From: Psychrilyobacter piezotolerans
GTDB taxonomy: Bacteria; Fusobacteriota; Fusobacteriia; Fusobacteriales; Fusobacteriaceae
Direction: 5' to 3'
Length of the DNA: 64,000 bases
NCBI RefSeq assembly: GCF_003391055.1
Contig: NZ_QUAJ01000007.1
Location: 1-64,000, forward strand
Part shown: piece by piece, positions 4,385-26,722 of the stretch
Position numbering within the stretch: the first letter of the stretch is position 1
Layout of the letters: each line of letters starts with the position of its first letter
The notes under the pieces: model-generated
Told to the model about the DNA's origin: nothing
Database searches by the model: none
Seen by the model: only the letters and a program-made list of their open reading frames with translations
Position numbers and translations under genes: made by a program

Positions 4385-6115
4385 ATGAAAGAATTAAGAT
4401 CATTTATAAAATACTACAAATGTTATATCAAACTATTAATATTTACATTAATGTGTGCTGTTTTACTGGCCCTGCTGGATTTGGCTTTTCCAAAAATAAT
4501 TCAAATAATGATAGATAAAATAATCCCGGCAAAGGACTTAAAAACATTTTATTATATCTCCGGCGGATTGATAGTCATGTATCTGCTGAGATATGCAGTC
4601 AGCTATTATCAGCTGTACTATGGAAATATTTTAGGAATTAAGATAGAGACCCAGATGAGAAAAGAACTGTTTACCCATATTCAAAAATTATCCTTTAGTT
4701 ATTTTGACAACAACAAGACGGGGGTAATTATGTCAAAACTGGTCAATGACCTGGGTGAAATATCGCAGTTAGCCAACCATGGACCCATAGACCTGTTTAT
4801 TGCTGTAATCAGGCTGGTAGGAGCATTTATACTGATGGTCACCTTAAATGTAAAATTGACCCTGGTTATATTTTCGGTTCTTCCATTCATGATATATTTT
4901 GCTGTCACTCAAAAATGGAAGATGAAACTGGCATTTGGGAAGACCAGGATAAAGATAGCGGGTATAAATTCCTGTGCGGAAGAAAGTATCGGCGGAGTCA
5001 GGATAGTAAAATTATTCAACAATGAAAATCATGAAATAGATAAATTTGAGAAAAAAAACCAGGAATTTCAAGAAGCTAAAAAAGAAACTTATAGAACCAC
5101 TGCTGTTTTCTTTTCGGGAATCCATATATTTATGAACCTTATGCAGTTTATAGTGGTATTTTATGGTGGTTATTTAATAATGCACGGGGAGTTGACCTAT
5201 GGTATTTTAATTAGTTTTTTACTATACTGCTATAGATTTATGGAGCCTATCAGAAAGATGATGATCTTAGTCCAGAGTTATCAAAAAGGAATGGCAGGAT
5301 ATAGGAGATTTCAGGGGATGATGGAAATAATTCCGCAGATTAAAGATATAGAAAATCCATTGATTTTAAAGGAAATAAATGGGAATATAGAGCTAAAAGA
5401 TGTAAAGTTTTCCTATAATAAATCATCTGAAGAATTAGATAAAGACCAATCACTGATTTTGAATAAATTCAATTTAAAAATAAAATCTGGGGAAAGTATA
5501 GCCATAGTCGGATCCAGTGGTGTAGGGAAATCAACTATTTCAAATCTGATTCCAAGATTTTATGACATTGATTCTGGAAGTATCACCATAGATGGAAAGG
5601 AGATAAGTAAGATAAAGTTGAGTTCCCTCCGGGAAAATATAGGTATTGTGCCCCAGGAGGCATTTTTATTTGGAGGAACTATAGGGGAGAATATAGGGTA
5701 CGGTAAGCTGGGTGCAACGAGAGATGAATTAATAGAAGCATCTAAAAAAGCTAATATATATGAGTTTATAAGTAGCCTGCCAAAGGGATTTGATACCCTG
5801 GTAGGAGAAAGGGGGGTAAAACTTTCAGGAGGACAAAAACAAAGGATATCTATAGCCAGGATATTTTTAAAAAATCCTAAGATCTTAATCTTGGATGAAG
5901 CTACGGCATCGTTGGATAATATTACGGAAAAACTCATCCAGGAAGCCCTCATGACATTATCTAAAGACAGGACCACCATAACTATAGCTCACAGGCTGTC
6001 CACCATTATTAATTCCGACAGAATTGTGGTTATGGATAAAGATGGTGTAGTGGAGACGGGAACCCATGAAGAGTTATTAAAATTAAAGGGATCCTATGCT
6101 AAACTTTACCGGTAG
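4385..6115 (+). CDS. MsbA-like ABC exporter (fused permease-ATPase)
   Basis: Half-size ABC exporter of 576 aa that should work as a homodimer in the inner membrane and export lipid-like or drug-like substrates. The N-terminal ABC transporter type 1 region (about residues 15-310) has six predicted membrane helices. The ATPase domain starts near 340. Walker A is G-S-S-G-V-G-K-S-T at about 375, the Q-loop lies in I-V-P-Q-E, the signature is L-S-G-G-Q-K-Q-R, Walker B is I-L-I-L-D-E-A, and the H-loop is I-A-H-R-L-S. All nucleotide-binding residues are present. RBS TAGGAG lies just before the ATG. The neighbours give no substrate clue; MsbA-type lipid export or multidrug export are both possible. 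Confidence 0.9.
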   Translation: MKELRSFIKYYKCYIKLLIFTLMCAVLLALLDLAFPKIIQIMIDKIIPAKDLKTFYYISGGLIVMYLLRYAVSYYQLYYGNILGIKIETQMRKELFTHIQKLSFSYFDNNKTGVIMSKLVNDLGEISQLANHGPIDLFIAVIRLVGAFILMVTLNVKLTLVIFSVLPFMIYFAVTQKWKMKLAFGKTRIKIAGINSCAEESIGGVRIVKLFNNENHEIDKFEKKNQEFQEAKKETYRTTAVFFSGIHIFMNLMQFIVVFYGGYLIMHGELTYGILISFLLYCYRFMEPIRKMMILVQSYQKGMAGYRRFQGMMEIIPQIKDIENPLILKEINGNIELKDVKFSYNKSSEELDKDQSLILNKFNLKIKSGESIAIVGSSGVGKSTISNLIPRFYDIDSGSITIDGKEISKIKLSSLRENIGIVPQEAFLFGGTIGENIGYGKLGATRDELIEASKKANIYEFISSLPKGFDTLVGERGVKLSGGQKQRISIARIFLKNPKILILDEATASLDNITEKLIQEALMTLSKDRTTITIAHRLSTIINSDRIVVMDKDGVVETGTHEELLKLKGSYAKLYR

Positions 6116-6527: not shown

Positions 6528-6551
6528 TTCAGTAACAATTTAATAAAATAT

Positions 6552-6706
6552 AATCTTGGTTCGATTTGTATCGATTAAAAGGGAAGTGGGTGAAAATCCT
6601 ACACGGTCCCGCCACTGTAAGACGGACGAAAATAGCATACCACTGAAGTGATTCGGGAAGGGCTATGAGTAGGGTAAAGTCAAGTCAGGAGACCTGCCAG
6701 ATTATT
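6552..6706 (+). promoter_or_regulatory. Cobalamin riboswitch (B12 element)
   Basis: The conserved cobalamin aptamer blocks are present in order: AAAAGGGAAG, GGTGAAAATCC, a CGGTCCCGCCACTGTAA block, and the B12 box AAGTCAGGAGACCTGCC at 6682-6699. A terminator follows 60 nt later, so control is probably by transcription termination when adenosylcobalamin or another cobalamin binds. It controls cbiK, the importer and the cbi genes. Confidence 0.95.
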
Positions 6707-6765
6707 TTTACGAACTTGCGAGGACGAGGATGTAGACATTTGTATTTTGGTATATAAAATGTTTT

Positions 6766-6794
6766 AGGTCTCTAAGTTTTAGGGGCCTTTTTTA
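6766..6794 (+). terminator. Riboswitch expression-platform terminator
   Basis: A 10-bp stem (6766-6775 with 6779-6788, some G-U pairs) with a GTT loop is followed by T6. It sits between the cobalamin aptamer and cbiK, as expected for a riboswitch-controlled terminator. Confidence 0.85.
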
Positions 6795-6887: not shown

Positions 6888-7808
6888 ATGAAAAAAATGT
6901 TAGTGGTGTTGGTAATGTTGGCAATGGGGATCTCTTTATTTGCGAATGGAGCAAAATCAAATGATTTTGATCTGAAAAAGGGGGAGAAGAAAGCAATATT
7001 GCTGGTGAGTTTTGGAACAACTTTTCCTGAAACAAGGGAAAAAACTATAGGTGCATTGGAGAAAGAATTTAAAGCTGATTATCCTGATTTTAAAGTAGTT
7101 ACTGCTTTTACATCCAGAATAATTATGAGAAGAATCAAAGAAAATGAGGGGATTACCTATGATAACCCCAGTGAAGCATTGAAGAAATTAAAAAAAGACG
7201 GGTATACCCATGTATTGGTGCAGGGGACCCATATTATGAACGCTATTGAATCTGAAACATTAAAAACGGAAGTAGAAAGCTATAAGGGAGACTTTAAAGT
7301 ACTAAAAGTAAGTACTCCGTTACTTACCAGTGTAGAGGATTATAAAGAGGTTGTTAAGGCACTAAAGCCGACTTATAAAAATTTAAAGAAAGATGAAGCT
7401 GTGGTATTTATCGGACATGGTACCCACCATCCTGGGAACTCTGCTTATTCCATGCTGGAGCATGTATTCCACGGTGAAGGGGTTAAAAATGCATTTTTAG
7501 GAACTGTAGAAGGGTATCCTGCATTGGATGACGTCATTGCGGGTTTAAAGAAAGCTAAAATAAAAAAAGTAGAATTATATCCGTTTATGATCGTAGCAGG
7601 AGATCATGCAAACAATGATATTGCTGTGGATATGAAGGAAGAGTTAGAAAAAAATGGATTTACTGTAAAAGCTCACCTGGTTGGATTGGGGGAAAATAAG
7701 GAAATCAGGAAGATATTTGTTGAACATGCAGAATTCGGGTTGACTCATGAGGAAGAAAATATGTTAGCCAAAAAGAAAGAATATGCAAATGGGAAGCAGC
7801 CCCTTTAA
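6888..7808 (+). CDS. cbiK: Exported anaerobic cobaltochelatase CbiK
   Basis: Inserts cobalt into sirohydrochlorin at the start of the anaerobic cobalamin route. The start is the ATG at 6888 with AGGAGG upstream, giving 306 aa; an upstream ATG at 6846 has no RBS. The protein starts with a Sec signal peptide (K-K, a hydrophobic run, A-N-G-A cleavage region near residue 20, no lipobox Cys). The mature enzyme should therefore be periplasmic, like the described CbiKP of Desulfovibrio vulgaris. The chelatase fold motifs are clear: L-L-V-S-F-G-T-T near 40, metal-ligand His177 in H-G-T-H-H, and His240 in G-D-H-A-N-N-D. It is followed within 3 nt by an iron/cobalamin-type ABC importer under the same riboswitch. 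This suggests metal or tetrapyrrole capture at the cell surface. A role in heme or iron handling instead of corrin synthesis is possible. Confidence 0.92.
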   Translation: MKKMLVVLVMLAMGISLFANGAKSNDFDLKKGEKKAILLVSFGTTFPETREKTIGALEKEFKADYPDFKVVTAFTSRIIMRRIKENEGITYDNPSEALKKLKKDGYTHVLVQGTHIMNAIESETLKTEVESYKGDFKVLKVSTPLLTSVEDYKEVVKALKPTYKNLKKDEAVVFIGHGTHHPGNSAYSMLEHVFHGEGVKNAFLGTVEGYPALDDVIAGLKKAKIKKVELYPFMIVAGDHANNDIAVDMKEELEKNGFTVKAHLVGLGENKEIRKIFVEHAEFGLTHEEENMLAKKKEYANGKQPL

Positions 7809-7811
7809 TCT

Positions 7812-8810
7812 ATGAAAAAACATTTTAAATTATGGACGACAATTGGAATAATACTATTAATCCTTTCAATATTCTTCTACCTTCAAATGGGATATATAAA
7901 AATTCCATTGAAGGAAGTGGTGGAGAGTATCAAAGGCGGGGAGGGAGCTCCTAACTGGTATATTATCCATGAAGTGAGGTTACCGAGGATTCTCACTTCG
8001 ATCTTAATAGGTTCAATTTTATCCATGTGCGGATTGGTGTTTCAGGGGGTTTTATTAAACCCCCTGGCTGATCCATATACATTGGGAATCTCCAGCGGTG
8101 CATCATTTGGTGCGGCGCTGGCTATAGTCTTAAATATAACAATTTTTGGAATTTTCAGTACACATATAGTTTCATTTATATTTGCAATCCTCTGTCTGAC
8201 AGTTGTTATTCAGATGGGTTCTTTTGAAAGGAAGATGAATCCCACTTCTATAATATTAGGAGGGATAATAATAGGAGCTTTCTTTTCTGCAGGACTGAGT
8301 TTTTTAAAATATTTAGCTGATGAAGGTGTAGGAGCCATTATATTTTGGCTCCTTGGAAGCTTTACCGGGAAATCCTGGATGGAAGTGGGTATTTTAAGTG
8401 CAGTATGGGTCTTTGGATTCATATTTTTCTGCTATTATGCAGAAGATTTAAATATCTTAGCCTTAGGAGAAAAAAGTGCTATCTCTTTGGGGATAAACCC
8501 CAGTAAGATCAGGAGGATATTGCTGGTTGTCAGCTCTATCTTGTCGGCTGTGGCAGTTTCCACCTGCGGGATAATAGGATTTGTAGGATTGGTAGTTCCC
8601 CATCTTCTGCGGTTTATTCTGGGAACGGACAATAAAAAGCTGGTTATAGGCTGTGCCATATGGGGCGGGGTCATTATGGGAGCTGCAGATAATGTAGTCC
8701 GGGTAGTATTGCCAAATGATATTCCTGTAGGAGTAATCACATCACTGCTGGGAGCACCGTTCTTTGCGCTGATTTTTAGGAAAAAGATGGGAGGAGGAAG
8801 TCTGAGATGA
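7812..8810 (+). CDS. FecCD/BtuC-type ABC permease
   Basis: Integral membrane permease of 332 aa with nine to ten hydrophobic segments. It has the family motif run R-L-P-R-I-L-T-S, then G-x-x-F-Q-G-V-L-L-N-P-L-A-D-P, and G-L-V-V-P-H-L-L-R near residue 260, which contacts the ATPase. It should move a corrinoid, heme, siderophore or metal-tetrapyrrole across the inner membrane with the two following genes. No good Shine-Dalgarno precedes the ATG, and the gap to cbiK is 3 nt, so translation is probably coupled. The cobalamin riboswitch upstream favours cobalamin or cobalt-related cargo, but the substrate is not shown by the sequence. Confidence 0.9.
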   Translation: MKKHFKLWTTIGIILLILSIFFYLQMGYIKIPLKEVVESIKGGEGAPNWYIIHEVRLPRILTSILIGSILSMCGLVFQGVLLNPLADPYTLGISSGASFGAALAIVLNITIFGIFSTHIVSFIFAILCLTVVIQMGSFERKMNPTSIILGGIIIGAFFSAGLSFLKYLADEGVGAIIFWLLGSFTGKSWMEVGILSAVWVFGFIFFCYYAEDLNILALGEKSAISLGINPSKIRRILLVVSSILSAVAVSTCGIIGFVGLVVPHLLRFILGTDNKKLVIGCAIWGGVIMGAADNVVRVVLPNDIPVGVITSLLGAPFFALIFRKKMGGGSLR

Positions 8811-9580
8811 TAGATATAAAGAAAATAAATTATTCTATAGACGGAACTCAAATTTTGGATAACCTGTCTTTTAAGTTTGAAAAGGGTAAATTTTACGGGA
8901 TCTTAGGCCCAAATGGAAGCGGAAAGACTACATTTTTGGATGTTTTAAGCGGGTATAAAAATGCTCCAGATTCTGAGATTTATATAGAAAATAAGGAATT
9001 AAAGGAATATTCCCCTTTGAAGTTAGCAAAAAAAATTGCAATAGTACCGCAAAAATTTGATATAGTATTTCCTTTTTCTGTCTCCGATATACTGGAGATG
9101 GGAAGGTATCCCTATAAGAAAAAGTTTTTCAGTTTACAAAAATCAGATTATGAGGTTATCGACAGGGTGATAAAAGAGATAGGCTTAGAAGAATTTTTAG
9201 ATAAAGAAATAACTGCCCTCAGCGGCGGGGAGGAACAGAGGGTTATATTTGGAAAGGCTCTGATTCAGACAACACCAATCTTATTCTTAGACGAGTCAAC
9301 CTCTAATTTGGATCCTTACTATTCCCATACCTTACTGAGCCTTGTAAGAAAAAGAGTGGAAGAGGAACAAACCATGGTTATAGGAGTATTTCACGACTTT
9401 AATTTAGCTACACTTTATTGTGATGAAATCCTCTTATTGGAGAAGGGAAGGATTGTAACAAGCGGGAAAACCCAGGAGGTACTTAATTCAAAGGCGCTGG
9501 AAGAAGTATTTAAAATAGGGTGGGAGAAATATAAAACGGAAAAGAATACATTTGTATTTCCAAAATTAGGAGATGATTAG
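8807..9580 (+). CDS. FepC/BtuD-type ABC ATPase
   Basis: Cytoplasmic ATPase of 257 aa that energises the adjacent permease; the start overlaps the permease stop by 4 nt. Walker A is G-P-N-G-S-G-K-T-T at residues 34-42, the Q-loop is V-P-Q-K, the signature L-S-G-G-E-E-Q-R (Glu where Gln is more usual), Walker B I-L-F-L-D-E-S-T and the switch His in F-H-D-F. The whole set is intact. Confidence 0.9.
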   Translation: MIDIKKINYSIDGTQILDNLSFKFEKGKFYGILGPNGSGKTTFLDVLSGYKNAPDSEIYIENKELKEYSPLKLAKKIAIVPQKFDIVFPFSVSDILEMGRYPYKKKFFSLQKSDYEVIDRVIKEIGLEEFLDKEITALSGGEEQRVIFGKALIQTTPILFLDESTSNLDPYYSHTLLSLVRKRVEEEQTMVIGVFHDFNLATLYCDEILLLEKGRIVTSGKTQEVLNSKALEEVFKIGWEKYKTEKNTFVFPKLGDD

Positions 9581-9581
9581 A

Positions 9582-10481
9582 GTGATTAAAACAATAAAAT
9601 TATTATCTGTCTTTATTTTTATAACACAGCTGTCCTTTACTTCTAATAAAGAGCTGCTAAGTGAATCCGGCAAAGTAGTAAATTTAAGCAAACCTCATAC
9701 AAGAATTATCTCCCTCTATGGAGCTCATACGGATGTATTGATAAATATAGGGGGGAAAGAAAATCTGGTAGGAGTGGATAAAAGCAGTGCAGATCTGGGG
9801 ATAGAGGTATTCTCCTATAAGGACAGTGTAGAAAAGTTTCTATCTGCAAAACCGGATTTAATCCTGATAAGACCCATGATCAGGGACAGGTTCAGCGGGT
9901 TAATAAGGTCGTTGAAAAATGCAAACTTAACTGTAGTCACTATAAAACCTACAAAGTTTGAGGAGTTGGATAACTATTGGCTGACATTGGGTAGATTGAG
10001 CGGACATGAAAAGGAAGCTATTCAATATACAGATGACTTTCATATGAATCTGGCAGAGTTAAGGGCAAAAGCAGATTCCATACCTGTTCAAGAGAGAAAA
10101 ACAGTGTTCTTCGAGGCCAGACATAAGACCAACCAGACAACCTCGTTAGAAGGGATACCGGCTTATATTTTAGGGGTATTGGATATAGATAATATAGCCT
10201 ACGATGCTGTTCCTGCAAAAAAAGGATCCAGTGTAGCTGATTTTCCCAAAGAGTTATTGCTCAGCAGGGGTGAAGAGATCGATGTATATTTAGCACAATA
10301 TGGAGCAATGAACAGGCCCACTGTAGATATAATAAAAAAAGCACCTGGCTATAAGGCAATAAGGGCAATAAGGGAAGGGGAAATCTATATAATAGATGAA
10401 TATGATGTGTCGAGACCAACAAACGGACTATTGGACGGAATAAAAGAAATTGGACATATTGTATATCCAAAATATTTTTAA
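9582..10481 (+). CDS. Periplasmic BtuF/FecB-like substrate-binding protein
   Basis: Binding protein for the importer, about 299 aa, with an N-terminal signal peptide and no lipobox Cys. I choose the GTG at 9582, because AGGAG at 9568-9572 is then spaced 9 nt; the ATG at 9573 directly abuts that RBS. The first lobe begins R-I-I-S-L-Y-G-A-H-T-D and continues I-G-G-K-E-N-L-V-G-V-D, the pattern of TroA-like class III binding proteins. It overlaps the ATPase gene. The ligand is unknown; a corrinoid, heme or cobalt chelate would fit the riboswitch and the cbiK neighbour. Confidence 0.85.
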   Translation: MIKTIKLLSVFIFITQLSFTSNKELLSESGKVVNLSKPHTRIISLYGAHTDVLINIGGKENLVGVDKSSADLGIEVFSYKDSVEKFLSAKPDLILIRPMIRDRFSGLIRSLKNANLTVVTIKPTKFEELDNYWLTLGRLSGHEKEAIQYTDDFHMNLAELRAKADSIPVQERKTVFFEARHKTNQTTSLEGIPAYILGVLDIDNIAYDAVPAKKGSSVADFPKELLLSRGEEIDVYLAQYGAMNRPTVDIIKKAPGYKAIRAIREGEIYIIDEYDVSRPTNGLLDGIKEIGHIVYPKYF

Positions 10482-10493: not shown

Positions 10494-11141
10494 ATGAGTT
10501 ATGTAAAAAAGCCTATGGCAATTGAAAATAAGAGTTTTGAGATAATTACCGAGGAATTAGGAGAAAAAGTAAAAAAATTTACAGAAGATGAATTAAAGAT
10601 AGTAAAAAGACTGATCCACACCACTGCCGATTTTGAATATGCAGATATAGTTGAGATATCAGAAGACGCAATAGAAAGCGGAAAAAAAGCCATTGAAGAG
10701 GGGAGCAGGATCTACTGTGACACCAATATGATTGTAAACGGCCTCAGTAAAAAAACAATGGAAAAATGGGGTGTCGGTGCCTATTGTCTGGTTTCAGATG
10801 ATGAAGTAGTTATAGAAGCAAAGGAAAGGGGACTGACCCGTTCTATAGTGGGGATGGAAAAAGCAATAAAAGACGAGAAAACAAAAATATTTTTGATCGG
10901 AAATGCTCCTACAGCTCTATTCACATTGATGGAAGCAGTTGAAAAAGGATACAGGCCAGATCTTGTAGTTGGAGTACCGGTTGGATTTGTAGGCGCTGAG
11001 GATTCCAAAGAAAGACTGAGAGAACTAAACATCCCTTATATTGTAACCAGGGGTAGAAAGGGTGGAAGTACAGTTGCAGTAGCTACATTCCACGGAATTT
11101 TGTACGATATGTATGACAGAAAAGGATTTTTAGGAGAATAA
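10494..11141 (+). CDS. cbiC: Cobalt-precorrin-8 methylmutase CbiC
   Basis: Moves the C-11 methyl to C-12 of cobalt-precorrin-8, giving cobyrinate. It is 215 aa, the normal length. It has the family start (Y-V-K-K-P-M-A-I-E), the central I-Y-C-D-T-N-M-I segment carrying ring-binding residues, and the C-terminal P-V-G-F-V-G-A-E-D-S-K loop. GGGGG precedes the ATG. It is co-transcribed with the importer genes and cbiD. Confidence 0.95.
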   Translation: MSYVKKPMAIENKSFEIITEELGEKVKKFTEDELKIVKRLIHTTADFEYADIVEISEDAIESGKKAIEEGSRIYCDTNMIVNGLSKKTMEKWGVGAYCLVSDDEVVIEAKERGLTRSIVGMEKAIKDEKTKIFLIGNAPTALFTLMEAVEKGYRPDLVVGVPVGFVGAEDSKERLRELNIPYIVTRGRKGGSTVAVATFHGILYDMYDRKGFLGE

Positions 11142-11148
11142 TTTTAAG

Positions 11149-12339
11149 ATGAAATTAGATAAATATACAGTCCAAGATGGCAAAAAGATGAGGTATGGAT
11201 ACACTACCGGTTCAACTGCAGCAGGAGCATGTAAAGGTGCAGTGGAGATATATTTTCAAAGGGAAGATATATCCACCATAGAGATAGAAACTCCCAAGGG
11301 ATGGGATTTAAATCTGGATATAAACAGTATCGAAACAGGGACTAAAGATAACTCCAGATATGTGAAAACCAGTATCATAAAAGATGGGGGAGATGACCCC
11401 GATGCTACCGATAAGATAGAGATCTTTGCCACTGTCAGGGAAGTTTCAGAGGATGAAGAAATAGAAGACAGGGGAGATAACTTTATCAATGAAAAAAAGA
11501 GTGTTTCCCTACGGGGCGGAACAGGTGTAGGAAAAATTACTAAAAAGGGGCTCCAGGTAGCCATAGGAAAACCAGCAATAAATCCTGTACCTGTCCGGAC
11601 TATATTTTATGAGGTAGAAAAGATCCTGCCTCAAGGAAAAAAGATAGAAATTACCATAGATGTTCCAATGGGGGTTGAAATAGGAAAAAAGACCTTTAAT
11701 CCTAAATTAGGGATCTTAGGGGGGATTTCTATCTTAGGTACAACCGGGATAGTAAAACCCATGTCGGAGGAAGCCTTCAAAGATTCCATAGTCGTAGAAT
11801 TAAAGATGCTGCTGGAGGAGTTCTCTGAAGACACAGTAATTATTACTCCCGGGAACTATGGGAAGAAATTCCTGGTGGAAAAACTGGGGATAGAACCTGA
11901 AAAGATACTGATTATCAGTAATTTTATGGGGTTTATCCTGGACAATATAAAAGTCTTGGGATATAAAAAAATAGTCTTAGTGGGACATATAGGAAAACTC
12001 ATCAAGGTAGCCGGGGGGATATTTCATACCCATTCAAAGGTATCCGATGCCAGAATGGAAATCTTAGGAGCCAATGCCCTATTAGCCGGAGAAACTCCGG
12101 AAGATGTAATCAAAATCATAGAAGCTAATACTACAGAAGAAGGTTTATCCTATCTGAAGTTAAAGGACACCAATAAAATAATTGCAGAAAAAATCAAGCA
12201 GAAATGTGAGGGTAGAGTTTTTGATGAAATAGAGGTGGAGGTGTTAACTTTTTCCTTTGATCATGGGGAGTTAGCCAGAACAGATGGATTTAATACTATG
12301 GTAAATAACTATATGGAGAATAATTATGGAAAAAATTAA
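11149..12339 (+). CDS. cbiD: Cobalt-precorrin-5B C1-methyltransferase CbiD
   Basis: Adds the C-1 methyl during ring contraction in the anaerobic pathway. It is 396 aa and full length. The N-terminal R-Y-G-Y-T-T-G-S-T-A-A-G-A-C-K-G-A block is diagnostic for CbiD. The G-I-L-G-G-I-S-I-L-G-T-T-G-I-V block and the late H-T-H-S-K-V-S-D-A-R segment also match. The start lies 7 nt after cbiC and the end overlaps cbiE by 14 nt. Confidence 0.95.
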   Translation: MKLDKYTVQDGKKMRYGYTTGSTAAGACKGAVEIYFQREDISTIEIETPKGWDLNLDINSIETGTKDNSRYVKTSIIKDGGDDPDATDKIEIFATVREVSEDEEIEDRGDNFINEKKSVSLRGGTGVGKITKKGLQVAIGKPAINPVPVRTIFYEVEKILPQGKKIEITIDVPMGVEIGKKTFNPKLGILGGISILGTTGIVKPMSEEAFKDSIVVELKMLLEEFSEDTVIITPGNYGKKFLVEKLGIEPEKILIISNFMGFILDNIKVLGYKKIVLVGHIGKLIKVAGGIFHTHSKVSDARMEILGANALLAGETPEDVIKIIEANTTEEGLSYLKLKDTNKIIAEKIKQKCEGRVFDEIEVEVLTFSFDHGELARTDGFNTMVNNYMENNYGKN

Positions 12340-12958
12340 TATACTGGGGCTGGGCCCCGGGAATAAAAAATATATCCTTCCCATTACTAAAGAATGTATA
12401 AAAAAATCCGAGATATTGATCGGCGGCAGGAGAAATATAGAATCTTTAGGGACTTTGGCAGAAGGAAAAGAACTGCGGTATATAGACAGGTATTTAGACC
12501 AGTTATCTCTCTATATGAAAGAGAACAGAGACAGGAGAATTTCTCTTATAGTTTCCGGGGATTCAGGGTTTTACAGTATGGTTCCCTTTATGAAAAAACA
12601 TTTTGAAATAAAAGAACTAAATATCATTCCGGGAATCTCCTCCATGCAATATATGTTTTCTGCAGTAGGCTACTCCTATGAAGATACCTTTATAGGCAGT
12701 GTCCACGGAAGGAACTGCGATTACCTTACCCCTGTAAAAGAAGGGAAAAAAGCAGGGCTCCTCACAGATAATAAAACTACTCCCCAGGTAATTGCCCAAA
12801 ATTTATTGGAAAATCAGATAAGAGGGACTATTTTTGTAGGAGAAAGACTGAGTTATGATGATGAAAGAATAACAACAATGAGTTTAGAAGAGATGGCGGA
12901 TCTAAAGATCATCTTTGATATAAATGTAGTGATCGTAATACCCGATACTCCATCCTAA
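12326..12958 (+). CDS. cbiE: Cobalt-precorrin-7 C5-methyltransferase CbiE
   Basis: SAM-dependent methyltransferase of the tetrapyrrole methylase fold, 210 aa. G-L-G-P-G-N near the N-terminus and V-S-G-D-S-G-F-Y-S near residue 75 are the SAM and substrate motifs. In many bacteria CbiE and CbiT are fused as CobL; here they are two adjacent genes. It is translationally coupled to cbiD. Confidence 0.93.
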   Translation: MEKINILGLGPGNKKYILPITKECIKKSEILIGGRRNIESLGTLAEGKELRYIDRYLDQLSLYMKENRDRRISLIVSGDSGFYSMVPFMKKHFEIKELNIIPGISSMQYMFSAVGYSYEDTFIGSVHGRNCDYLTPVKEGKKAGLLTDNKTTPQVIAQNLLENQIRGTIFVGERLSYDDERITTMSLEEMADLKIIFDINVVIVIPDTPS

Positions 12959-13005: not shown

Positions 13006-13575
13006 ATGGTTCATATAGAAGATAAAGAATTTATACGGGGAAAAGTACCTATGACTAAGCAGGAAGTCAGGTGTATATCCATAGCAAAGTTAGATTTGAA
13101 AGAGGATAGTGTCCTAATCGATGTAGGAGCAGGATCCGGCAGTGTGGGTATAGAGGCTGCTAACTTTATGCCCAAAGGTAAGGTCTTTGGAATAGAGGTA
13201 AATCCTGATGGAATAGAAGTGATCAGGCAGAATCTGGAAAAATTTAATACAGCAAATTATGAACTTGTAGAGGGATTAGCTCCAGTTGATATTCCTGATA
13301 TCTGTGTAGACAGGATGTTTATAGGGGGATCTAAGGGGAACTTAGAAACCATATTGGAATGGTTTCTTTGTCATTCCGGGGATAATGCAAAGGTAGTTAT
13401 AAATACCATAACCTTGGAAAGTCTGAGTGATGCTGTGAAGGGATTGGAAAAGCTGAAATTTTGTGAGATAGAAGTAATTAATATAAATATAGCAAGAAAT
13501 AAAAAAATAGGTAGATACAATATGATGATGGGTGAAAACCCGATATATATTATATCGGCCAAAAGGAGTAAATAA
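13006..13575 (+). CDS. cbiT: Cobalt-precorrin-6B C15-methyltransferase (decarboxylating) CbiT
   Basis: Methylates C-15 and decarboxylates the C-12 acetate. It is 189 aa with a Rossmann class I methyltransferase fold. The SAM motif I-D-V-G-A-G-S-G-S-V-G-I-E-A-A lies near residue 40, after the T-K-Q-E-V-R segment. The acidic V-D-R-M-F-I-G-G-S block also fits CbiT. RBS GGGAG precedes the ATG. Confidence 0.94.
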   Translation: MVHIEDKEFIRGKVPMTKQEVRCISIAKLDLKEDSVLIDVGAGSGSVGIEAANFMPKGKVFGIEVNPDGIEVIRQNLEKFNTANYELVEGLAPVDIPDICVDRMFIGGSKGNLETILEWFLCHSGDNAKVVINTITLESLSDAVKGLEKLKFCEIEVININIARNKKIGRYNMMMGENPIYIISAKRSK

Positions 13576-13578
13576 AAA

Positions 13579-14298
13579 ATGGCAAAATTATATGGAATAG
13601 GTGTAGGTGTAGGAGATCCGGAAATGTTAACAATGAAAGCTGTAAGAGCTTTGGGAGAATCAGATGTAGTGATTTTACCCCGTGCAAATACAAAAAACTA
13701 TAGTACAGCATTTGAGATTGCAAAAGAATACATGAAGGAAGATATTGAGAAGGTATTTTTGGACTTTACAACTGTAGATAACGATAAAATACGTGAAGAT
13801 GATAGATTGGAATATTCAAAGATTGTAAATAGATTGGTAAAAGAGGGGAAAAATATAGCGTTTATAACTATTGGAGATCCTATGACCCTCAGTACATTCG
13901 TGTATGCAATGGAACTATTAGAGGATGAGATAGAAGTAGAGTCTATCCCCGGGATTACTTCATTTGCTTCTATAACTTCAAGACTGAGAACACCTTTACT
14001 TATGGGAGATGAAACATTAAAAGTTATCCCTATTGCGAAGGAAACAGATCTGGTAAAAGAGATAGAGTCAGCGGATAATTTAGTCTTTATGAAGGTTACC
14101 AGAAATTTAGAAAGATTAAAAGAGGCTTTTAGAGAAACAAATAATATGGAAAATGTAGTTTTAATTTCTAACTGCGGAAAAGATTCGGAAAAAATATTTT
14201 ATGATTTAGAAGATATCACCCGTGATGATATCTCATATTTTTCAACGATATTACTTAAAAAGGGCGGTGTGAGACAATGGCAAAAGTATTTTTCATAG
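13579..14298 (+). CDS. cbiL: Cobalt-factor-II/precorrin-2 C20-methyltransferase CbiL
   Basis: First methyltransferase after cobalt insertion, 239 aa. It has G-V-G-V-G-D-P-E-M-L-T-M-K-A at the N-terminus and T-I-G-D-P-M-T-L-S-T-F near residue 95, both typical of CbiL/CobI. The start is 3 nt after cbiT with AAAAGGAG upstream. The end overlaps cbiF by 22 nt. Confidence 0.95.
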   Translation: MAKLYGIGVGVGDPEMLTMKAVRALGESDVVILPRANTKNYSTAFEIAKEYMKEDIEKVFLDFTTVDNDKIREDDRLEYSKIVNRLVKEGKNIAFITIGDPMTLSTFVYAMELLEDEIEVESIPGITSFASITSRLRTPLLMGDETLKVIPIAKETDLVKEIESADNLVFMKVTRNLERLKEAFRETNNMENVVLISNCGKDSEKIFYDLEDITRDDISYFSTILLKKGGVRQWQKYFS

Positions 14299-15035
14299 GA
14301 GCAGGCCCTGGAGATCCGGAATTAATCACAGTAAAGGGACAAAGACTGGTAAAAGAAGCCGATGTAATCATCTATGCAGGATCATTGGTACCGAGACAGG
14401 TTATAGAGTGTCATAAGGAAGGAGCAGAGGTATACAACAGTGCTTCTATGAATTTAGATGAAGTAATAGAGGTAACGGTAAAAGCTATAAATGACGGTAA
14501 GATGGTAGCCAGGGTACATACAGGAGATCCTGCTATCTATGGGGCCCACAGGGAACAAATGGATATATTAGCCAGCCACAACATAGAATTTGAAGTTATC
14601 CCAGGGGTAAGTTCTTTCCTGGCATCAGCTGCAGCTATAAAAAAAGAGTTTACCCTTCCAGATGTATCTCAAACTGTTATCTGTACAAGGATGGAGGGAA
14701 GAACACCGGTTCCGGAATTAGAAAAGTTAGAACTGCTGGCTTCTCACAAGACATCTATGGCAATCTTCTTATCGGTACAGATGATAGACAAGGTGGTATC
14801 TCAGCTGTTATCCCACTATGAGTTGGATACACCGGTAGCAGTAATCCAGAGAGCTACCTGGGAAGATCAGAAGATAGTAATGGGAACACTGGAAAATATA
14901 GCAGAAAAGGTAGAAGAGGCAAATATCACAAAAACAGCTCAAATTTTAGTGGGAAGGTTTATGGGGGATGAATATTCAAAGTCAAAATTATATGATAAGC
15001 ATTTTACCCATGAATACAGGGAAGGAATAAAATAG
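14277..15035 (+). CDS. cbiF: Cobalt-precorrin-4 C11-methyltransferase CbiF
   Basis: Adds the C-11 methyl. It is 252 aa, with G-A-G-P-G-D-P-E-L-I-T-V-K-G at the N-terminus and H-T-G-D-P-A-I-Y-G-A near residue 82, the SAM-binding loops of CbiF/CobM. It starts inside cbiL, so the two are probably coupled. A GC-rich hairpin follows before cbiG. Confidence 0.95.
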   Translation: MAKVFFIGAGPGDPELITVKGQRLVKEADVIIYAGSLVPRQVIECHKEGAEVYNSASMNLDEVIEVTVKAINDGKMVARVHTGDPAIYGAHREQMDILASHNIEFEVIPGVSSFLASAAAIKKEFTLPDVSQTVICTRMEGRTPVPELEKLELLASHKTSMAIFLSVQMIDKVVSQLLSHYELDTPVAVIQRATWEDQKIVMGTLENIAEKVEEANITKTAQILVGRFMGDEYSKSKLYDKHFTHEYREGIK

Positions 15036-15055
15036 AGACTTAACGCCCCCTTTGT

Positions 15056-15083
15056 TTCCCCCTCTTAATATAAGTGGGGGGAA
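15056..15083 (+). other. C/G-rich hairpin between cbiF and cbiG
   Basis: A stem of CCCCC-CTT against AAG-GGGGG closes an AATAT-type loop. The short T6 tract comes 9 nt later, so it is at best a weak terminator. It may set the relative expression of cbiG or mark an mRNA end. Confidence 0.5.
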
Positions 15084-15134
15084 GTGTAGTTTTTTGGAGA
15101 AATGAAAAAAATTATTTACAGTAGGGAGATTTTT

Positions 15135-16169
15135 ATGAGATTAGCTGTTATCACACTGACTAAAAAGGCCATGAAAAAAGGGGTCGAGATAAAAGAACTG
15201 CTCACTCCTACAGATAGATTTAAAACCATAGATGTATTTGCCTTATCAAAATATAGTGATGATAAAACTATACCTATGGATAAAGGCTTTAAAGATACGG
15301 TATCCAGGATATTTGATTGCTATGACAGTTTATATTTTATCATGGCAAGCGGAATAGTGGTGAGGACCATAGCACCCCTACTGAAAAGTAAGGATGTAGA
15401 CCCTGCTGTAATTACAAGTGATGAAGATGGAAACTTTGTCGTATCGTTGCTTTCCGGTCATCTGGGAGGAGCTAATGAATTAGCTTCCCTCATAGCAGAA
15501 AATATAGGGGGACTTCCTGTTATTTCCACAGCTTCTGATGTATCTGGAAGTATAGCAGTAGACACTATAGCTATGAAGTTAAAGGCACACCTGAGGAATC
15601 TTGAGAGTGCCAAAGATCTAACCGCTCTTATAGTCAACGGGGAAAGGGTGGAACTAAGATTACCTAAGAATATGGTAGTAAGCCTAGACTCTTTTTATCC
15701 TGGAGATCAAGAGAAGAATATAAAAAAAGACATAGCAGGAATAGTGGCTGTGTCCAACAGGCTGGATCTTAAGATAACCCAGATAATTCCCAGAAACATA
15801 ATATTGGGGATCGGGTGCAGAAGGGGTACACCTGCTGAAACTATATCAAAGGGTATAGAATTAACTATGAAAGAGTTCAACCTGCATATGGATAGTATAA
15901 AACATCTTGCTACTGTAGATGTAAAAGCAGATGAGACTGGACTATTAGAAGTTTGTGAGAAATTAGGCAAAGAATTGATAGTTATAGATAGGGAGCAGAT
16001 AAAACCTGTCCAGGATAACTATGAAGGTTCTGATTTTGTAGAAAAAACCATAGGAGTGAGGTGTGTATCTGCTCCTGCAGCTTATCTGTCCAGCAATAAA
16101 AATGGTAAATTTATAACGGAGAAAAAAATATATAAGGGTATGACAGTATCTATATATGAGGAGGAGTAG
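15135..16169 (+). CDS. cbiG: Cobalt-precorrin-5A hydrolase CbiG
   Basis: Opens the delta-lactone of cobalt-precorrin-5A and releases the two-carbon fragment as acetaldehyde. I place the start at ATG 15135 (344 aa) because GGGAG lies 6 nt upstream and the product then begins M-R-L-A-V-I-T-L-T. The ATG at 15102 has GGAG only 2 nt away. The N-terminal domain has A-S-G-I-V-V-R-T-I-A-P and L-S-G-H-L-G-G-A-N-E-L. The C-terminal domain begins at I-L-G-I-G-C-R-R-G-T. It is the last gene before a gap of about 470 nt. Confidence 0.93.
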   Translation: MRLAVITLTKKAMKKGVEIKELLTPTDRFKTIDVFALSKYSDDKTIPMDKGFKDTVSRIFDCYDSLYFIMASGIVVRTIAPLLKSKDVDPAVITSDEDGNFVVSLLSGHLGGANELASLIAENIGGLPVISTASDVSGSIAVDTIAMKLKAHLRNLESAKDLTALIVNGERVELRLPKNMVVSLDSFYPGDQEKNIKKDIAGIVAVSNRLDLKITQIIPRNIILGIGCRRGTPAETISKGIELTMKEFNLHMDSIKHLATVDVKADETGLLEVCEKLGKELIVIDREQIKPVQDNYEGSDFVEKTIGVRCVSAPAAYLSSNKNGKFITEKKIYKGMTVSIYEEE

Positions 16170-16642
16170 ACCCTCTTCCTTCCTAAGGGTGTCACCCTTA
16201 ACGGACTCTATTTCTTTTTATCTGAAAAAGAAATAGAGGAAAGTGACCGCAAGGGTCATCACCAAAATAACTAATGCTTATTTCATAAGCTAAGAATTTT
16301 GAGAAAAAGCAGAAATTTTGAAAATGGCTTTAGGGTAGGGATAAAATAGCTACGAGTTTACGGGCTACAGTCCTCGTTTCACTGTGGAACTTAATCTGTA
16401 TATCGCTCTTAGTAGGATAATCATCGTTAAAGCAGCATCGCCTTCAAAATTAAAAAAGGCGACTAAGTTAAGATAACACCTAGAAAAAGAAAACTCCGTG
16501 AAACTCTAGTTTAAATCTCTGTGTATCTCTGTGTTGATAGATTGTCTTAGTGAGTAATACACGATTGTTGTTAGCGTCAAAATAGGGTTTTAAAGAAAAG
16601 TAAAATATTATAATGAGTAATAAACTTGGAGGAGAACATATT
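16170..16642. other. Gene-free gap with nested inverted repeats
   Basis: No credible ORF lies between cbiG and cbiH. It contains a 7-nt palindrome at 16184-16198, a perfect 14-bp inverted repeat (16206-16219 with 16225-16238), a small TGACC/GGTCA hairpin just after it, and a GTGT-type direct repeat at 16516-16535. Similar pieces recur in the gap at 28243-28742. It is probably degenerate repeat DNA that interrupts the operon; I see no clear promoter. Confidence 0.6.
16206..16238. repeat. Perfect 14-bp inverted repeat
   Basis: CTCTATTTCTTTTT and its exact complement flank the loop ATCTG. It is preceded by AAGGGTGTCACCCTT (16184-16198) and followed by a TGACC/GGTCA hairpin, so three stems lie in 75 nt. 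There is no downstream T tract, which argues against a terminator. Confidence 0.75.
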
Positions 16643-17374
16643 ATGGAAAAAGGAAAAATATATGTAGTTGGAATGGGGCCTGGGAATAAGGATAATATGA
16701 GTTTTAAAGCCTTTGATTCTATGAATAAATCGGATATATTAATTGGACATAAAACATATATTTCATTGGTAGAAGAGATGTTTCCGGAAAAGGAACTAAT
16801 CAGATCTGCTATGAAAAAAGAGATAGACAGATGTAATGAAACATTGAAGCTGGCTCAAAGTGGAAAAACCATAGCTTTAATCAGCAGCGGTGAATCTGGA
16901 GTCTACGGGATGGCAGGAATCATGCTGGAAGTAGCTTTAGACAGTGACATTGAGGTAGAAGTAGTTCCGGGAATTACAGCTTCCAATGCCGGGGCAAGTG
17001 TTGTGGGAGCTCCTATAATGCACGACCACGCAACAATTAGTTTGAGTGATCTGTTGACCGACTGGGATTTAATAACAAAGAGGATAGATTTAGCTTCCCA
17101 GGGTGATTTTGTAATTTCATACTACAATCCTAAGAGTTTTTCCAGGACTACTCAAATTGTAGAAGCAAGGGAGATCATGTTAAGACATAAGAGTAAAGAC
17201 ACCCCTGTGGCAATAGTAAGAAATGCGAAAAGAGACGGGGAAGAGTATGTGATAACTACATTGGGGGATATGCTGGATCATGAGATCAACATGTTCACTG
17301 TGGTAATAGTAGGAAATTCCAAAACCTATGTAAAAAACGGCAAGATGATAACACCTAGGGGATACAAACTTTGA
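16643..17374 (+). CDS. cbiH: Cobalt-precorrin-3 C17-methyltransferase CbiH
   Basis: Methylates C-17 and drives ring contraction. The start is ATG 16643, which has GGAGGAG upstream (243 aa); the in-frame ATG at 16613 would put that RBS inside the gene. G-M-G-P-G-N and S-S-G-E-S-G-V-Y-G-M-A-G are the methylase motifs, and V-P-G-I-T-A-S-N-A-G-A matches CbiH/CobJ. The stop overlaps the start of cbiJ. Confidence 0.95.
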   Translation: MEKGKIYVVGMGPGNKDNMSFKAFDSMNKSDILIGHKTYISLVEEMFPEKELIRSAMKKEIDRCNETLKLAQSGKTIALISSGESGVYGMAGIMLEVALDSDIEVEVVPGITASNAGASVVGAPIMHDHATISLSDLLTDWDLITKRIDLASQGDFVISYYNPKSFSRTTQIVEAREIMLRHKSKDTPVAIVRNAKRDGEEYVITTLGDMLDHEINMFTVVIVGNSKTYVKNGKMITPRGYKL

Positions 17375-18108
17375 TCTTACTTGCCGGAGGGACTAAAGAT
17401 TCCAGGATAATAGCTGAAAGGCTGTTAAGGGATAAACATAAGATCATCGTGACTACAGCCACAGAATACGGAGGTCAGCTGATCTCCCATCTGGATTTAG
17501 AAGTCAGGGTGGCAAAGCTTGATCTAGAAGGCCTTGAAAAACTGGCTTATGAGATGAATATAAGCCGGATAGTAGATGCCACCCACCCTTATGCCATTGA
17601 GATTTCTAATAATTTACTAAAATTATCGACAATTTTAGGGGTGCCCTACTATAGATATGAAAGAAGGATGTTGGAATATAAAAAAGAAAACAGTTTTTAT
17701 GATTTAGAGGAGTTAATTAATTTTTTAGAGGGAGTAAGGGGGAATATCCTCCTTACCTTAGGAAGTAATAATATCCATAGATTTAAAGACTTAAAAAATA
17801 AAAAATCTATCTACATCAGGATACTGCCTACTGAATATGCCATAAAAAAATGTGAGGATGCAGGGTTCAGGCCCTCTCAGATAATAGGTCTTCAAGGCCC
17901 CTTTAACACCACCTTCAACGAGGCTATCTATGAAAATTATGATATAAAATACCTTGTGACCAAGGAGAGCGGAGCTGCAGGGGGAGAATTGGAAAAGGTA
18001 AAGGCAGCTTCGAATTTAGGAGTAGGAGTGGTAGTTTTAAAAAGACCGGTAGTTCAGTATAGAAACCTTTATAACGGGATAGATGATCTGATAGGAGCGA
18101 TTAAATGA
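17371..18108 (+). CDS. cbiJ: Cobalt-precorrin-6A reductase CbiJ
   Basis: Reduces cobalt-precorrin-6A at C18-C19 with a pyridine nucleotide. It is 245 aa and starts at a TTG that overlaps the cbiH stop (TTGA), with no ATG nearby. The nucleotide-binding start L-L-A-G-G-T-K-D-S-R and the V-D-A-T-H-P-Y-A motif near residue 70 are diagnostic. The C-terminal K-E-S-G-A-A-G-G motif is present. It overlaps cbiB by 4 nt. Confidence 0.94.
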   Translation: MILLAGGTKDSRIIAERLLRDKHKIIVTTATEYGGQLISHLDLEVRVAKLDLEGLEKLAYEMNISRIVDATHPYAIEISNNLLKLSTILGVPYYRYERRMLEYKKENSFYDLEELINFLEGVRGNILLTLGSNNIHRFKDLKNKKSIYIRILPTEYAIKKCEDAGFRPSQIIGLQGPFNTTFNEAIYENYDIKYLVTKESGAAGGELEKVKAASNLGVGVVVLKRPVVQYRNLYNGIDDLIGAIK

Positions 18109-19052
18109 GAGTTGAAAATATAATATTGATCGGGTTTATTCTGGATCTGGTATTTGGAGATCCCAGGAGTTTACTGCACCCAGTGGTAGTAATAGGGAGG
18201 GTCATCACTTTTTTAGAAAAAATATTATATAAATATAAAAAAATAGGCGGGATAATATTAAATTTAATAGTTGTAGGGCTGACTATAGGTCTAACATACC
18301 TGATTTCGGGTTATTTAGAGATAATTGAGATCTACCTGATCTACACTATATTTGCCACAAGATCCCTGGCTCTTGAGGGAGTGAAGGTATTTAATATATT
18401 GAAGAAAAAAGATATGCAGCTGGCAAGAAAGGAACTCTCCTACCTAGTCAGCCGTGATACAAACTATATGCAGGAAAAGGATATAGTCAGGAGTGTAATG
18501 GAAACCATCTCTGAAAATACAGTGGATGGTATAATATCGCCGCTGTTTTTTATAGCAGTTGGGTATCTGATTGCACCCTCTACGCCGTTAGGAGTAGCTC
18601 TGGGGATGGGATATAAGGCTGTAAATACACTGGATTCCATGGTGGGATATAAAAATGAAAAATATAAAGATTTTGGATGGTTTTCAGCCCGTGTAGATGA
18701 CTGGGCAAACATTATTCCTGCCAGATTAACGGGAGGAATCTTAATCCCGGTATCGGCATTCTTCCTTGGATATGATTTTAAAAATTCATGGAAGGTATTT
18801 TTCAGAGACAGATATAATCACGCCAGCCCGAATTCAGCACAATCTGAATCAGCTGTAGCAGGAGCTCTGGGGGTTCAATTCGGTGGGACTACCAGTTATT
18901 TTGGAAGGATGGCAGAAAAGCCTACCATTGGAGATAAGATAAAGGAGTTTGAACTATCGGATATTAAGAAAAATATCAAATTAATGTATGGGTCAGCCTT
19001 TTTAGGGATGGGACTGACTTATATGATACTTATGCTAAGGTCTATGAATTAA
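18105..19052 (+). CDS. cbiB: Adenosylcobinamide-phosphate synthase CbiB
   Basis: Membrane enzyme that joins adenosylcobyric acid to aminopropanol phosphate (or ethanolamine phosphate). It is 315 aa with several hydrophobic segments. The conserved D-L-V-F-G-D-P-R-S-L-L-H-P-V start and the S-R-D-T and E-N-T-V-D-G-I-I-S-P-L motifs match CbiB. The neighbouring cobD would supply its amino-alcohol phosphate. Confidence 0.94.
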   Translation: MRVENIILIGFILDLVFGDPRSLLHPVVVIGRVITFLEKILYKYKKIGGIILNLIVVGLTIGLTYLISGYLEIIEIYLIYTIFATRSLALEGVKVFNILKKKDMQLARKELSYLVSRDTNYMQEKDIVRSVMETISENTVDGIISPLFFIAVGYLIAPSTPLGVALGMGYKAVNTLDSMVGYKNEKYKDFGWFSARVDDWANIIPARLTGGILIPVSAFFLGYDFKNSWKVFFRDRYNHASPNSAQSESAVAGALGVQFGGTTSYFGRMAEKPTIGDKIKEFELSDIKKNIKLMYGSAFLGMGLTYMILMLRSMN

Positions 19053-19078
19053 TGAAGCTATAAAGAGGTGAATAAATA

Positions 19079-20143
19079 TTGGAACTACATGGTGGTAACA
19101 TATATAAATTAAAAAGGGAAAAAGGGGTAGAAGTACTGGACTATAGTGCTAACATCAACCCCTTTGGATTATCTGATAAATTGAAAAAAGGAATCACAGA
19201 TAATCTATGTGTATTGGAAAAATATCCTGACCCTGAATATATCAGTATGAAAAAAATAATTGCAGATTATAATGGTATTGGGATAGATAACATTGTAGTG
19301 GGGAACGGAGCTACAGAGATCATGTTCTTATATGCTAAGTGTTTGAAACCTAAAAAGGTGCTTATAGTATCTCCTACATTTGCAGAGTATGAAAGGGCAT
19401 TAAAATCAACAAATTGCCAGGTTGAATATTTTCAGTTGAGGGAAGATGAAGACTTTATATTAAATATACCGAGATTAAAGGAAACCTTGGATGAAACTTA
19501 TGATCTGCTGGTAGTATGCAATCCCAACAATCCTACAGGTAAATTTATAAAAAAAGATATATTAGATGATCTGGCGAAATTTTGCCTGACAAAAGATACT
19601 AATATCTTATTGGACGAAGCTTTTATAGAGTTTGTAGAAGGCAATTTGAGTGAATCTATACTGGAATATAAAAATGAAAATGTATTTATTGTCAGAGCTC
19701 TGACAAAGTTCTTTGCTATTCCCGGCCTGAGGTTAGGATACGGAATAACTTTTGATAGTGAACTGAAAGAAAAAATAGAATCATCCAGGGAGCCTTGGAG
19801 TGTAAATGCCATAGCAGAATTAGCAACCAAGATCTTATTGGAAGACAGTGAATATATAGAAAAATCAGAAAATTGGATAAGAACAGAAAAAGAATATATG
19901 TATAAGGAACTCTGTAAGATAGAAGGGATAAAACCATATAAAACAGAATCAAACTTTATATTAGTAAAATTGACAAATGGTATGGAAGCAGGAGAGTTTA
20001 GGGAAAAAATGATTTTATTGGGAGTATTGGTTAGAAATGCCAGTAATTTTAATTATTTAGATAATAGTTATTTTCGTCTAGCAATAAAAGACAGGGAAAA
20101 CAACAGAAAGGTTTTGAGGTGTGTAGAGGATGCAGTTAGATAG
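19079..20143 (+). CDS. cobD: L-threonine-O-3-phosphate decarboxylase CobD
   Basis: PLP enzyme that makes aminopropanol phosphate for the nucleotide loop. It is 354 aa, with a TTG start and AGAGGTG upstream. It has the fold of histidinol-phosphate aminotransferase: Y-S-A-N-I-N-P-F-G at the N-terminus, C-N-P-N-N-P-T-G, L-D-E-A-F near residue 180, and the PLP Lys at about 210 in T-K-F-F-A-I-P-G-L-R-L-G-Y. HisC is the alternative by sequence, but the cbiB neighbour and the N-terminal motif favour CobD. Confidence 0.9.
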   Translation: MELHGGNIYKLKREKGVEVLDYSANINPFGLSDKLKKGITDNLCVLEKYPDPEYISMKKIIADYNGIGIDNIVVGNGATEIMFLYAKCLKPKKVLIVSPTFAEYERALKSTNCQVEYFQLREDEDFILNIPRLKETLDETYDLLVVCNPNNPTGKFIKKDILDDLAKFCLTKDTNILLDEAFIEFVEGNLSESILEYKNENVFIVRALTKFFAIPGLRLGYGITFDSELKEKIESSREPWSVNAIAELATKILLEDSEYIEKSENWIRTEKEYMYKELCKIEGIKPYKTESNFILVKLTNGMEAGEFREKMILLGVLVRNASNFNYLDNSYFRLAIKDRENNRKVLRCVEDAVR

Positions 20144-23462: not shown

Positions 23463-23476
23463 AAAGGAGAAGGGAT

Positions 23477-24448: not shown

Positions 24449-24510
24449 AAATCAAAATAAACTAGAAATAGTGCATATATAGCCCTATTTCATTATACAA
24501 GGAGAGAGAG

Positions 24511-26134: not shown

Positions 26135-26593
26135 ATGAAAAAATATTTTCCAATCTTTGTAGATTTAGAAAAAAAAGATATCCTGGTAGTAGGTGGGGGA
26201 AAGATAGCCTATAGAAAGGTAAAAACCCTCCTTAGCTACGGAGCCCGAATAGAGGTTATCACACCAGAGATCAGGGATGAAAAGTTTTATGAATTGGTAG
26301 AAGAAAAAAGTATTAAATTAACTCCTAGAAAATTCAGGAACAGCGATATCCATGGGAGATTTTTAGTCGTAGGGGCTACAGACAATAAAGAATTGAATAA
26401 GGAAATCTATGAATTAGGAGACTCAGAGAATACCTTAGTCAATAATATAACAACTAAGGAAGATCTCAATGCAAGATTTTGTGCTGTTCATAGAGGGGAA
26501 GATTTCCAGGTAGCTATTTCAACAGATGAAGGAAACCCTAAAAGAGCATTGGAACTGAAAAAAGCTGTGGAGGAAAAAATTAATAGTAATTAA
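26135..26593 (+). CDS. Precorrin-2 dehydrogenase (CysG N-domain/Met8-like), short
   Basis: NAD-dependent enzyme that oxidises precorrin-2 to sirohydrochlorin, the substrate of CbiK and of siroheme ferrochelation. It is 152 aa, shorter than the roughly 200 aa of typical stand-alone forms; the missing part is the C-terminal helical end. The Rossmann motif V-V-G-G-G-K-I-A-Y-R-K lies near residue 20. D-N-K-E-L-N and the T-K-E-D-L-N-A-R-F segment match the family. A terminator follows at once. Confidence 0.88.
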   Translation: MKKYFPIFVDLEKKDILVVGGGKIAYRKVKTLLSYGARIEVITPEIRDEKFYELVEEKSIKLTPRKFRNSDIHGRFLVVGATDNKELNKEIYELGDSENTLVNNITTKEDLNARFCAVHRGEDFQVAISTDEGNPKRALELKKAVEEKINSN

Positions 26594-26601
26594 AGAAAAA
26601 A

Positions 26602-26629: not shown

Positions 26630-26648
26630 ATAATCATTACAATTATAC

Positions 26649-26677: not shown

Positions 26678-26722
26678 AAGAATAGACAAAGATAAAATAA
26701 AACGATTAAAATTGGGGGAATT

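Follow-up and report, generated by a model that had tools for sequence, protein, structure and literature searches.

Exported CbiK chelatases as possible stand-ins for the usual cobalt importer of B12-synthesising bacteria

Why should a chelatase that is predicted to insert cobalt carry an export signal, and why should its gene be followed directly by those of an importer? This question is raised by a stretch of 64,000 nucleotides from Psychrilyobacter piezotolerans (GCF_003391055.1, contig NZ_QUAJ01000007.1, positions 1-64,000, forward strand; hereafter the window), in which cbiK and three genes for an ATP-binding cassette (ABC) importer with a FecCD permease (6888-10481) head a nearly complete operon for anaerobic B12 synthesis. 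Comparison of sequences across many bacteria suggests that exported CbiK takes the place of the cobalt importer that B12 producers usually have. We consider it fairly probable, as a general claim, that exported CbiK and its FecCD importer form an extracytoplasmic cobalt-entry module in place of CbiMNQO.

A chelatase with a predicted export signal and an importer under one riboswitch

The CbiK protein of the window (306 amino acids, 6888-7808, plus strand, ATG at 6888, stop at 7808) is preceded by the ribosome site GGAGGAG and matches PF06180 (288.8 bits, cut-off 26.2). It does not reach the NCBIfam equivalog NF047852 (257.2 bits versus 400) and is filed as a member of the family, not as the equivalog; cobalt insertion is its predicted activity. 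An earlier note on this DNA had described a Sec signal peptide and all metal-site His residues, and the sequence agrees with both descriptions. The N-terminus, MKKMLVVLVMLAMGISLFANG, has a best 12-residue hydropathy of 2.97, which ranks second among the 23 operon proteins behind the FecCD membrane protein, and the signal peptide (approximately residues 1-19) is kept in all eight genomes of the genus. By this hydropathy rule and by conservation across the genus, the protein carries a predicted Sec-type export signal. The signal region contains no Cys, and thus there is no lipobox. Residues His177, Glu208 and His240 correspond to Salmonella His145, Glu175 and His207, and the metal site is intact. 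Of 32 positions at which cytosolic CbiK is conserved, the exported proteins show equal conservation at 27, weaker conservation at five and a replacement at none, so selection for a chelatase-like function seems to persist in the exported group.

The permease (BtuC-like, 7812-8810; PF01032, 295 bits), the ABC ATPase (8807-9580; PF00005) and a class III binding protein with an AHT motif (9573-10481; PF01497) follow on the plus strand, separated by gaps of 3, −4 and −8 nucleotides. Upstream lie a cobalamin riboswitch aptamer (6539-6715, plus strand; RF00174, 111.4 bits against a gathering score of 31.5) and an expression platform composed of a terminator hairpin of 10 pairs and a T run (6766-6788, plus strand). 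These features bear out the earlier claim that CbiK and a BtuFCD-like importer are encoded in a single operon controlled by a B12 riboswitch.

The earlier note had also seen no second chelatase in the window. This observation extends to the whole genome, which is 99.8% complete. Whole-genome searches found CbiK once, no match to CbiX beyond CbiK itself, and no match to CobN or to the ferrochelatase HemH; the genome also contains no CbiM and no NIR_SIR gene. A separate cytosolic chelatase, on whose absence the earlier reading depended, was thus sought in the full genome and none is recognisable.

Two proteins were weighed as hidden cytosolic chelatases and rejected. The first is SirC (152 amino acids, 26135-26593, plus strand), the sole siroheme-type dehydrogenase of the genome, which has the precorrin-2 dehydrogenase domain only and stops matching CysG and SirC at about residue 145. 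The column that we take to be CysG Asp104, in keeping with the Ala found there in entry 6p7c, holds Thr or Ser in this protein, as it does in 29 of the 30 further SirC sequences from Fusobacteriota, and Ser in Bacillus SirC (3dfz). With the C-terminal domain absent and Thr in place of the Asp, SirC is unlikely to be a chelatase. The short form lacking an Asp equivalent is found in nearly all sampled Fusobacteriota (the window and L131-L160), with an exception of 200 amino acids that has the Asp (L136).

The second is the small CbiX (CbiX-S) encoded by three congeners with the same operon, in a block between sirC and pepA that we take, from its sequence, to be Crp-FNT-AsrABC-CbiX-S; CbiX-S follows AsrC, whose position is backed by a NIR_SIR match. 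In the window, the whole block is missing between sirC and pepA (26593-26723), so the small CbiX is absent together with AsrABC. Because the block and NIR_SIR are both absent from a genome that makes B12, the most likely role of the small CbiX is in siroheme rather than B12 synthesis. It occurs in 16 of the 98 Fusobacteriota genomes surveyed below; by coordinates, eight copies adjoin a NIR_SIR gene (G040, G054-G057 and G059-G061) and five adjoin CbiM (G045, G047, G087, G088 and G090).

Exported CbiK and the distribution of CbiM

The pattern that goes beyond the earlier note is one of importer replacement, in which CbiM is missing where CbiK is classified from its sequence as exported. Our phylum survey comprised 98 Fusobacteriota genomes, of which the 76 with CbiD form the B12-pathway set. 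The N-termini of 85 CbiK proteins were labelled by a hydropathy and start-site rule together with reading of the sequences, giving 36 exported and 49 cytosolic proteins. Cobalt-type CbiM was defined as shorter than 300 amino acids, where the split at 300 into cobalt and nickel types is our own choice. Within the B12-pathway set, cobalt-type CbiM is present in one of the 35 genomes with exported CbiK versus 32 of the 41 without it (Fisher, 4e-12), and counting any CbiM instead changes the figures only to 4/35 versus 32/41. The sole exception with a short CbiM is an assembly with 8% contamination (G054). Intact full-length CbiK is found in none of the 22 CbiD-negative genomes, one of which has a broken copy (G085). 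In 15 of the 35 genomes with exported CbiK, neither a further CbiK nor a CbiX accompanies this protein. Of 25 loci scanned for a cobalamin riboswitch, which mostly encode exported CbiK, 21 gave a match and four (L064, L071, L087 and L096) did not. Separately, c-di-GMP-I riboswitches occur near the exported CbiK of Cetobacterium-like genomes of genus g3 (L093, L096 and L097).

The pattern also holds within a single genus (g6), where CbiM is absent from three genomes with exported CbiK and present in all four with cytosolic CbiK. The cytosolic proteins of these four genomes keep the linker that follows the signal peptide in exported CbiK. In another genome (G020, locus L064), a CbiK of the exported g5 clade has no signal peptide, no riboswitch at its locus and no CbiM in the genome. 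Members of g6, and G020, have dropped the signal peptide and still have the pathway, which could mean that the signal peptide is inefficient, or CbiK dually placed, so that a cytosolic pool makes B12. The lack of any other cytosolic chelatase in the P. piezotolerans genome also fits this explanation. Nevertheless, it leaves unexplained both the conserved signal peptides and lipoprotein signals of many lineages and the association with an importer, and we regard it as improbable.

Similar results were obtained outside the phylum with the best 80 of 594 relatives, reduced to 77 loci after L199, L226 and L233 were dropped. Seven export labels were changed by eye. Four CbiO-CbiK fusions (L207, L228, L244 and L267) were moved to the cytosolic group, and reading of their N-termini moved three Bacteroidota proteins (L206, L216 and L255) to the exported group; the labelling of L223, L218 and L240 as exported is borderline. 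FecCD importers are encoded near 18 of 28 exported CbiK proteins versus 0 of 49 cytosolic ones, and CbiMNQ near 0 of 28 versus 23 of 49. With labels from the rule alone, all 80 loci and the fusions kept apart, FecCD is near 17/26 exported and 2/50 cytosolic proteins, and CbiMNQ near 0/26 exported proteins, 19/50 cytosolic ones and all four fusions. A short CbiM, found by genome search or nearby, accompanies 3 of 28 exported versus 35 of 45 cytosolic proteins; here CbiM status comes from 50 genome searches and 23 loci with CbiMNQ nearby, and four archaeal loci without a status are excluded. For the genome-searched rows alone the figures are 3/28 versus 12/22 (p 0.0014).

The exported or cytosolic label changes five times on the phylum tree and 14 times on the larger tree. 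A likelihood test for correlated evolution favours dependence between the two traits (likelihood ratio 31.3, 4 degrees of freedom, p = 2.6e-6, 138 rows), based on the CbiK gene tree, the CbiM length cut and labels from the simple rule.

These counts bear on the possibility that the ABC transporter is an ordinary importer for salvage of B12 or other corrinoids, with exported CbiK an uninvolved member of its regulon. Cobalamin riboswitches classically control BtuCDF systems, and the structural neighbours of the modelled binding protein include BtuF. Moreover, the corresponding Desulfovibrio genes were named btuCDF by Rodionov et al. (2004; PMC545781). However, nearby FecCD genes mark exported CbiK alone and go together with a missing CbiM, and the NCBIfam equivalog cut-offs are unmet for both BtuC (222 versus 461 bits) and BtuF (19 versus 234 bits). 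We therefore judge salvage to be a rather improbable function.

Several loci of the wider sample have unusual architectures. In the Clostridia-type fusions, CbiO, the ATPase of the energy-coupling factor (ECF) cobalt importer, is joined in frame to CbiK beside CbiM and CbiQ, which physically ties a chelatase to an importer. In several Clostridia (L224, L232, L251 and L257), exported CbiK is a lipoprotein within a cbi operon. The lipoprotein frame of L224 apparently holds two tandem CbiK domains and lies near FecCD and cbi genes. A Roseburia lipoprotein (L188:5692-7620) combines a CbiK domain with a NEAT domain and is followed by genes for a binding protein, a permease and an ATPase. The layout is also carried on named plasmids of Sulfurospirillum, where the gene order is that of the window, Calditerrivibrio and Ilyobacter, and a Parabacteroides plasmid encodes exported CbiK with a TonB receptor in place of the ABC transporter.

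Related systems and the route of cobalt

A familiar arrangement is the CbiK-CbiMNQO operon of Salmonella-type and Leptotrichia genomes, which like the window joins a chelatase to an importer within a B12 operon. In those operons, however, CbiK is cytosolic and the cobalt importer is of the ECF type. Leptotrichia-like genomes carry a cytosolic CbiK directly before CbiMNQO, a place that is occupied in the window by the FecCD importer.

Exported CbiK with an ABC importer has already been described in Desulfovibrio and Porphyromonas, and the layout itself is not new. We take D. vulgaris to have a second, cytosolic CbiK and a periplasmic CbiK that binds heme, whereas the window genome has one CbiK only, and a second, cytosolic one was not found in the whole genome. 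The D. vulgaris protein CbiK-P (PDB 2xvx, 2xvy and 2xvz) is exported, as is predicted for CbiK of the window. One B12-element controls both cbiK-cbiL and btuCDF in Desulfovibrio (Rodionov et al. 2004), and that study (PMC545781) reports no known cobalt transporter for the delta-proteobacteria that bear CbiK. The CbiK-importer layout also occurs in Sulfurospirillum (PMC7755780). SMUL_1551-1554 and pSulSP share the order CbiK-permease-ATPase-binding protein-CbiC-D-E-T-L-F-G-H, and CbiK there has a hydrophobic N-terminus. Sulfurospirillum SirC differs in having 201 amino acids and keeping the Asp, and its MsbA-like gene lies inside the cobamide operon, with which it is induced, and not upstream as in the window. 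For the importer-replacement pattern, limited searches of the open-access literature found no statement.

The model of the binding protein (predicted local distance difference test, pLDDT, 84) has 4m7o, heme-binding proteins and BtuF as its closest structures. Heme-, B12- and metal-related proteins score within about 2 Z of one another, so the fold does not decide the ligand. Members of its subfamily accompany exported CbiK in Fusobacteriota, Sulfurospirillum and Clostridia.

This likeness to heme-binding proteins recalls the proposal for P. gingivalis IhtABCDE, by which CbiK would strip iron from external heme and the ABC transporter would import the iron. The second-best solved relative of CbiK is FetB (IhtB; PDB 9b86), and Iht pairs a CbiK-like lipoprotein with a binding protein, a permease and an ATPase, so that IhtB-E is made of the same kinds of parts (PMC10913741). 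Nevertheless, Iht includes a TonB receptor, is assigned a heme or iron role and is not part of a B12 operon. Our locus sits in a B12 operon behind a cobalamin riboswitch, its CbiK has no lipobox, and no TonB receptor was seen among the open reading frames of the operon. Heme or iron acquisition is accordingly a very unlikely role here.

The main rival is that CbiK traps Co(II) in the periplasm, or serves as a metallochaperone there, and hands it to the importer, while another enzyme inserts cobalt in the cytosol. A precedent is CbtJKL of Sinorhizobium meliloti, a BtuF-like ABC system under B12-riboswitch control that imports Co(II) (PMC7689651), which the importer of the window resembles by description. 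The available text of this cobalt review covers CbtJKL and CbiMNQO, describes no CbiK partner for CbtJKL and does not mention Desulfovibrio. The rival is further favoured by the fact that exported CbiK goes with a missing CbiM even in genomes that retain a cytosolic CbiK. On the other hand, this genome has no recognisable cytosolic chelatase, uncatalysed insertion is given as negligible at buffered Co(II) in the same review, and none of the 32 conserved positions is replaced in exported CbiK. We hold the trap to be unlikely, though to be taken seriously.

The alternative that we favour is a cycle of export, loading and import. The earlier note had suggested that an external or leaked tetrapyrrole may receive cobalt, or iron, and then be taken up, a suggestion borne out in part by the export signal, the intact metal site, the shared operon and the lack of a second recognisable chelatase. 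Sirohydrochlorin would be made in the cytosol by SirC and leave the cell, with the neighbouring MsbA-like protein as a candidate exporter. CbiK would insert Co2+ outside the inner membrane, on the side where free cobalt is. The binding protein would then capture cobalt-sirohydrochlorin, the FecCD transporter would return it to the cytosol, and CbiL would continue the pathway. This order of events is preferred because of the MsbA-like exporters beside or in loci with exported CbiK, the likeness of the binding protein and the conserved CbiK positions, and we consider the full cycle quite possible, if still short of probable. A more specific version, in which sirohydrochlorin is the cell's own cobaltophore, exported by the MsbA-like protein, loaded by exported CbiK and re-imported by FecCD so that a cobalt-ion importer and a cytosolic cobaltochelatase are unnecessary, is put forward more tentatively.

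The candidate tetrapyrrole exporter (MsbA/ABCB-type, 576 amino acids, 4385-6115, plus strand) adjoins exported CbiK in this genus, in Ilyobacter (55%) and in G054 (54%). On plasmids, the Sulfurospirillum MsbA-like exporter has its top non-self match (45.2%) in the Ilyobacter gene that adjoins exported CbiK, and the next match reaches 42.2%.

Several observations weigh against the proposed module and its cycle. Of the 35 genomes with exported CbiK, 20 also hold a cytosolic CbiK or a small CbiX, and thus the exported enzyme is not always the sole chelatase. Siroheme-type reductases are encoded in 11 of the 15 exported-only genomes, while the NIR_SIR gene is absent from the other four. In those 11, iron must enter sirohydrochlorin somewhere, and a cytosolic chelatase that is not recognised may exist. 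One 99%-complete genome (G021) has CbiD and NIR_SIR without CbiK or CbiX, and either its assembly has a gap there or a chelatase of an unknown kind is at work. Independent pairs on supported branches number only three to five and are not significant, although most of the informative ones lie in the expected direction. CbtJKL demonstrates that a BtuF-like ABC system can import bare Co(II) (PMC7689651). Finally, the MsbA-like family is large and its member here is only a candidate; unrelated plasmid genes reach 45% identity with it, and the gene was not accepted as proof of tetrapyrrole export.

The remaining operon and the meaning of exported CbiK

The genes from cbiC to sirC, and cbiA, lie on the plus strand. 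The four-gene set is followed by cbiC, cbiD and cbiE (10494-12958) and by cbiT, cbiL, cbiF, cbiG, cbiH, cbiJ, cbiB and a cobD-like gene (13006-20143), all named by comparison with a named operon. Next come genes that we take, from their sequences, to be hemA, hemC, cobA-hemD, hemB and hemL (20130-25803), and then sirC. Downstream of sirC are pepA and cbiA (28822-30138; NF002204, 463 bits versus a cut-off of 254). An adenosylcobalamin-dependent ribonucleotide reductase is also encoded in the window, and thus B12 has a use in the cell. In addition, a flavin mononucleotide (FMN) riboswitch precedes a gene for a DMT/EamA-type transporter (31001-32190), possibly for riboflavin.

How bacteria that make B12 without CbiMNQO obtain cobalt is an open question, and 13 B12-synthesising species without cobalt transporters are reported in PMC2667541. 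Exported CbiK together with a FecCD importer may be the missing route. If the proposal is correct, many genes that currently bear the name BtuCDF or iron transporter would be reassigned, and periplasmic CbiK would gain a role. One step of B12 synthesis would be located outside the inner membrane, and the place of cobalt insertion would become testable. It would also raise the matter of how cobalt is selected from among other metals where the buffering of metals in the cytosol does not reach.

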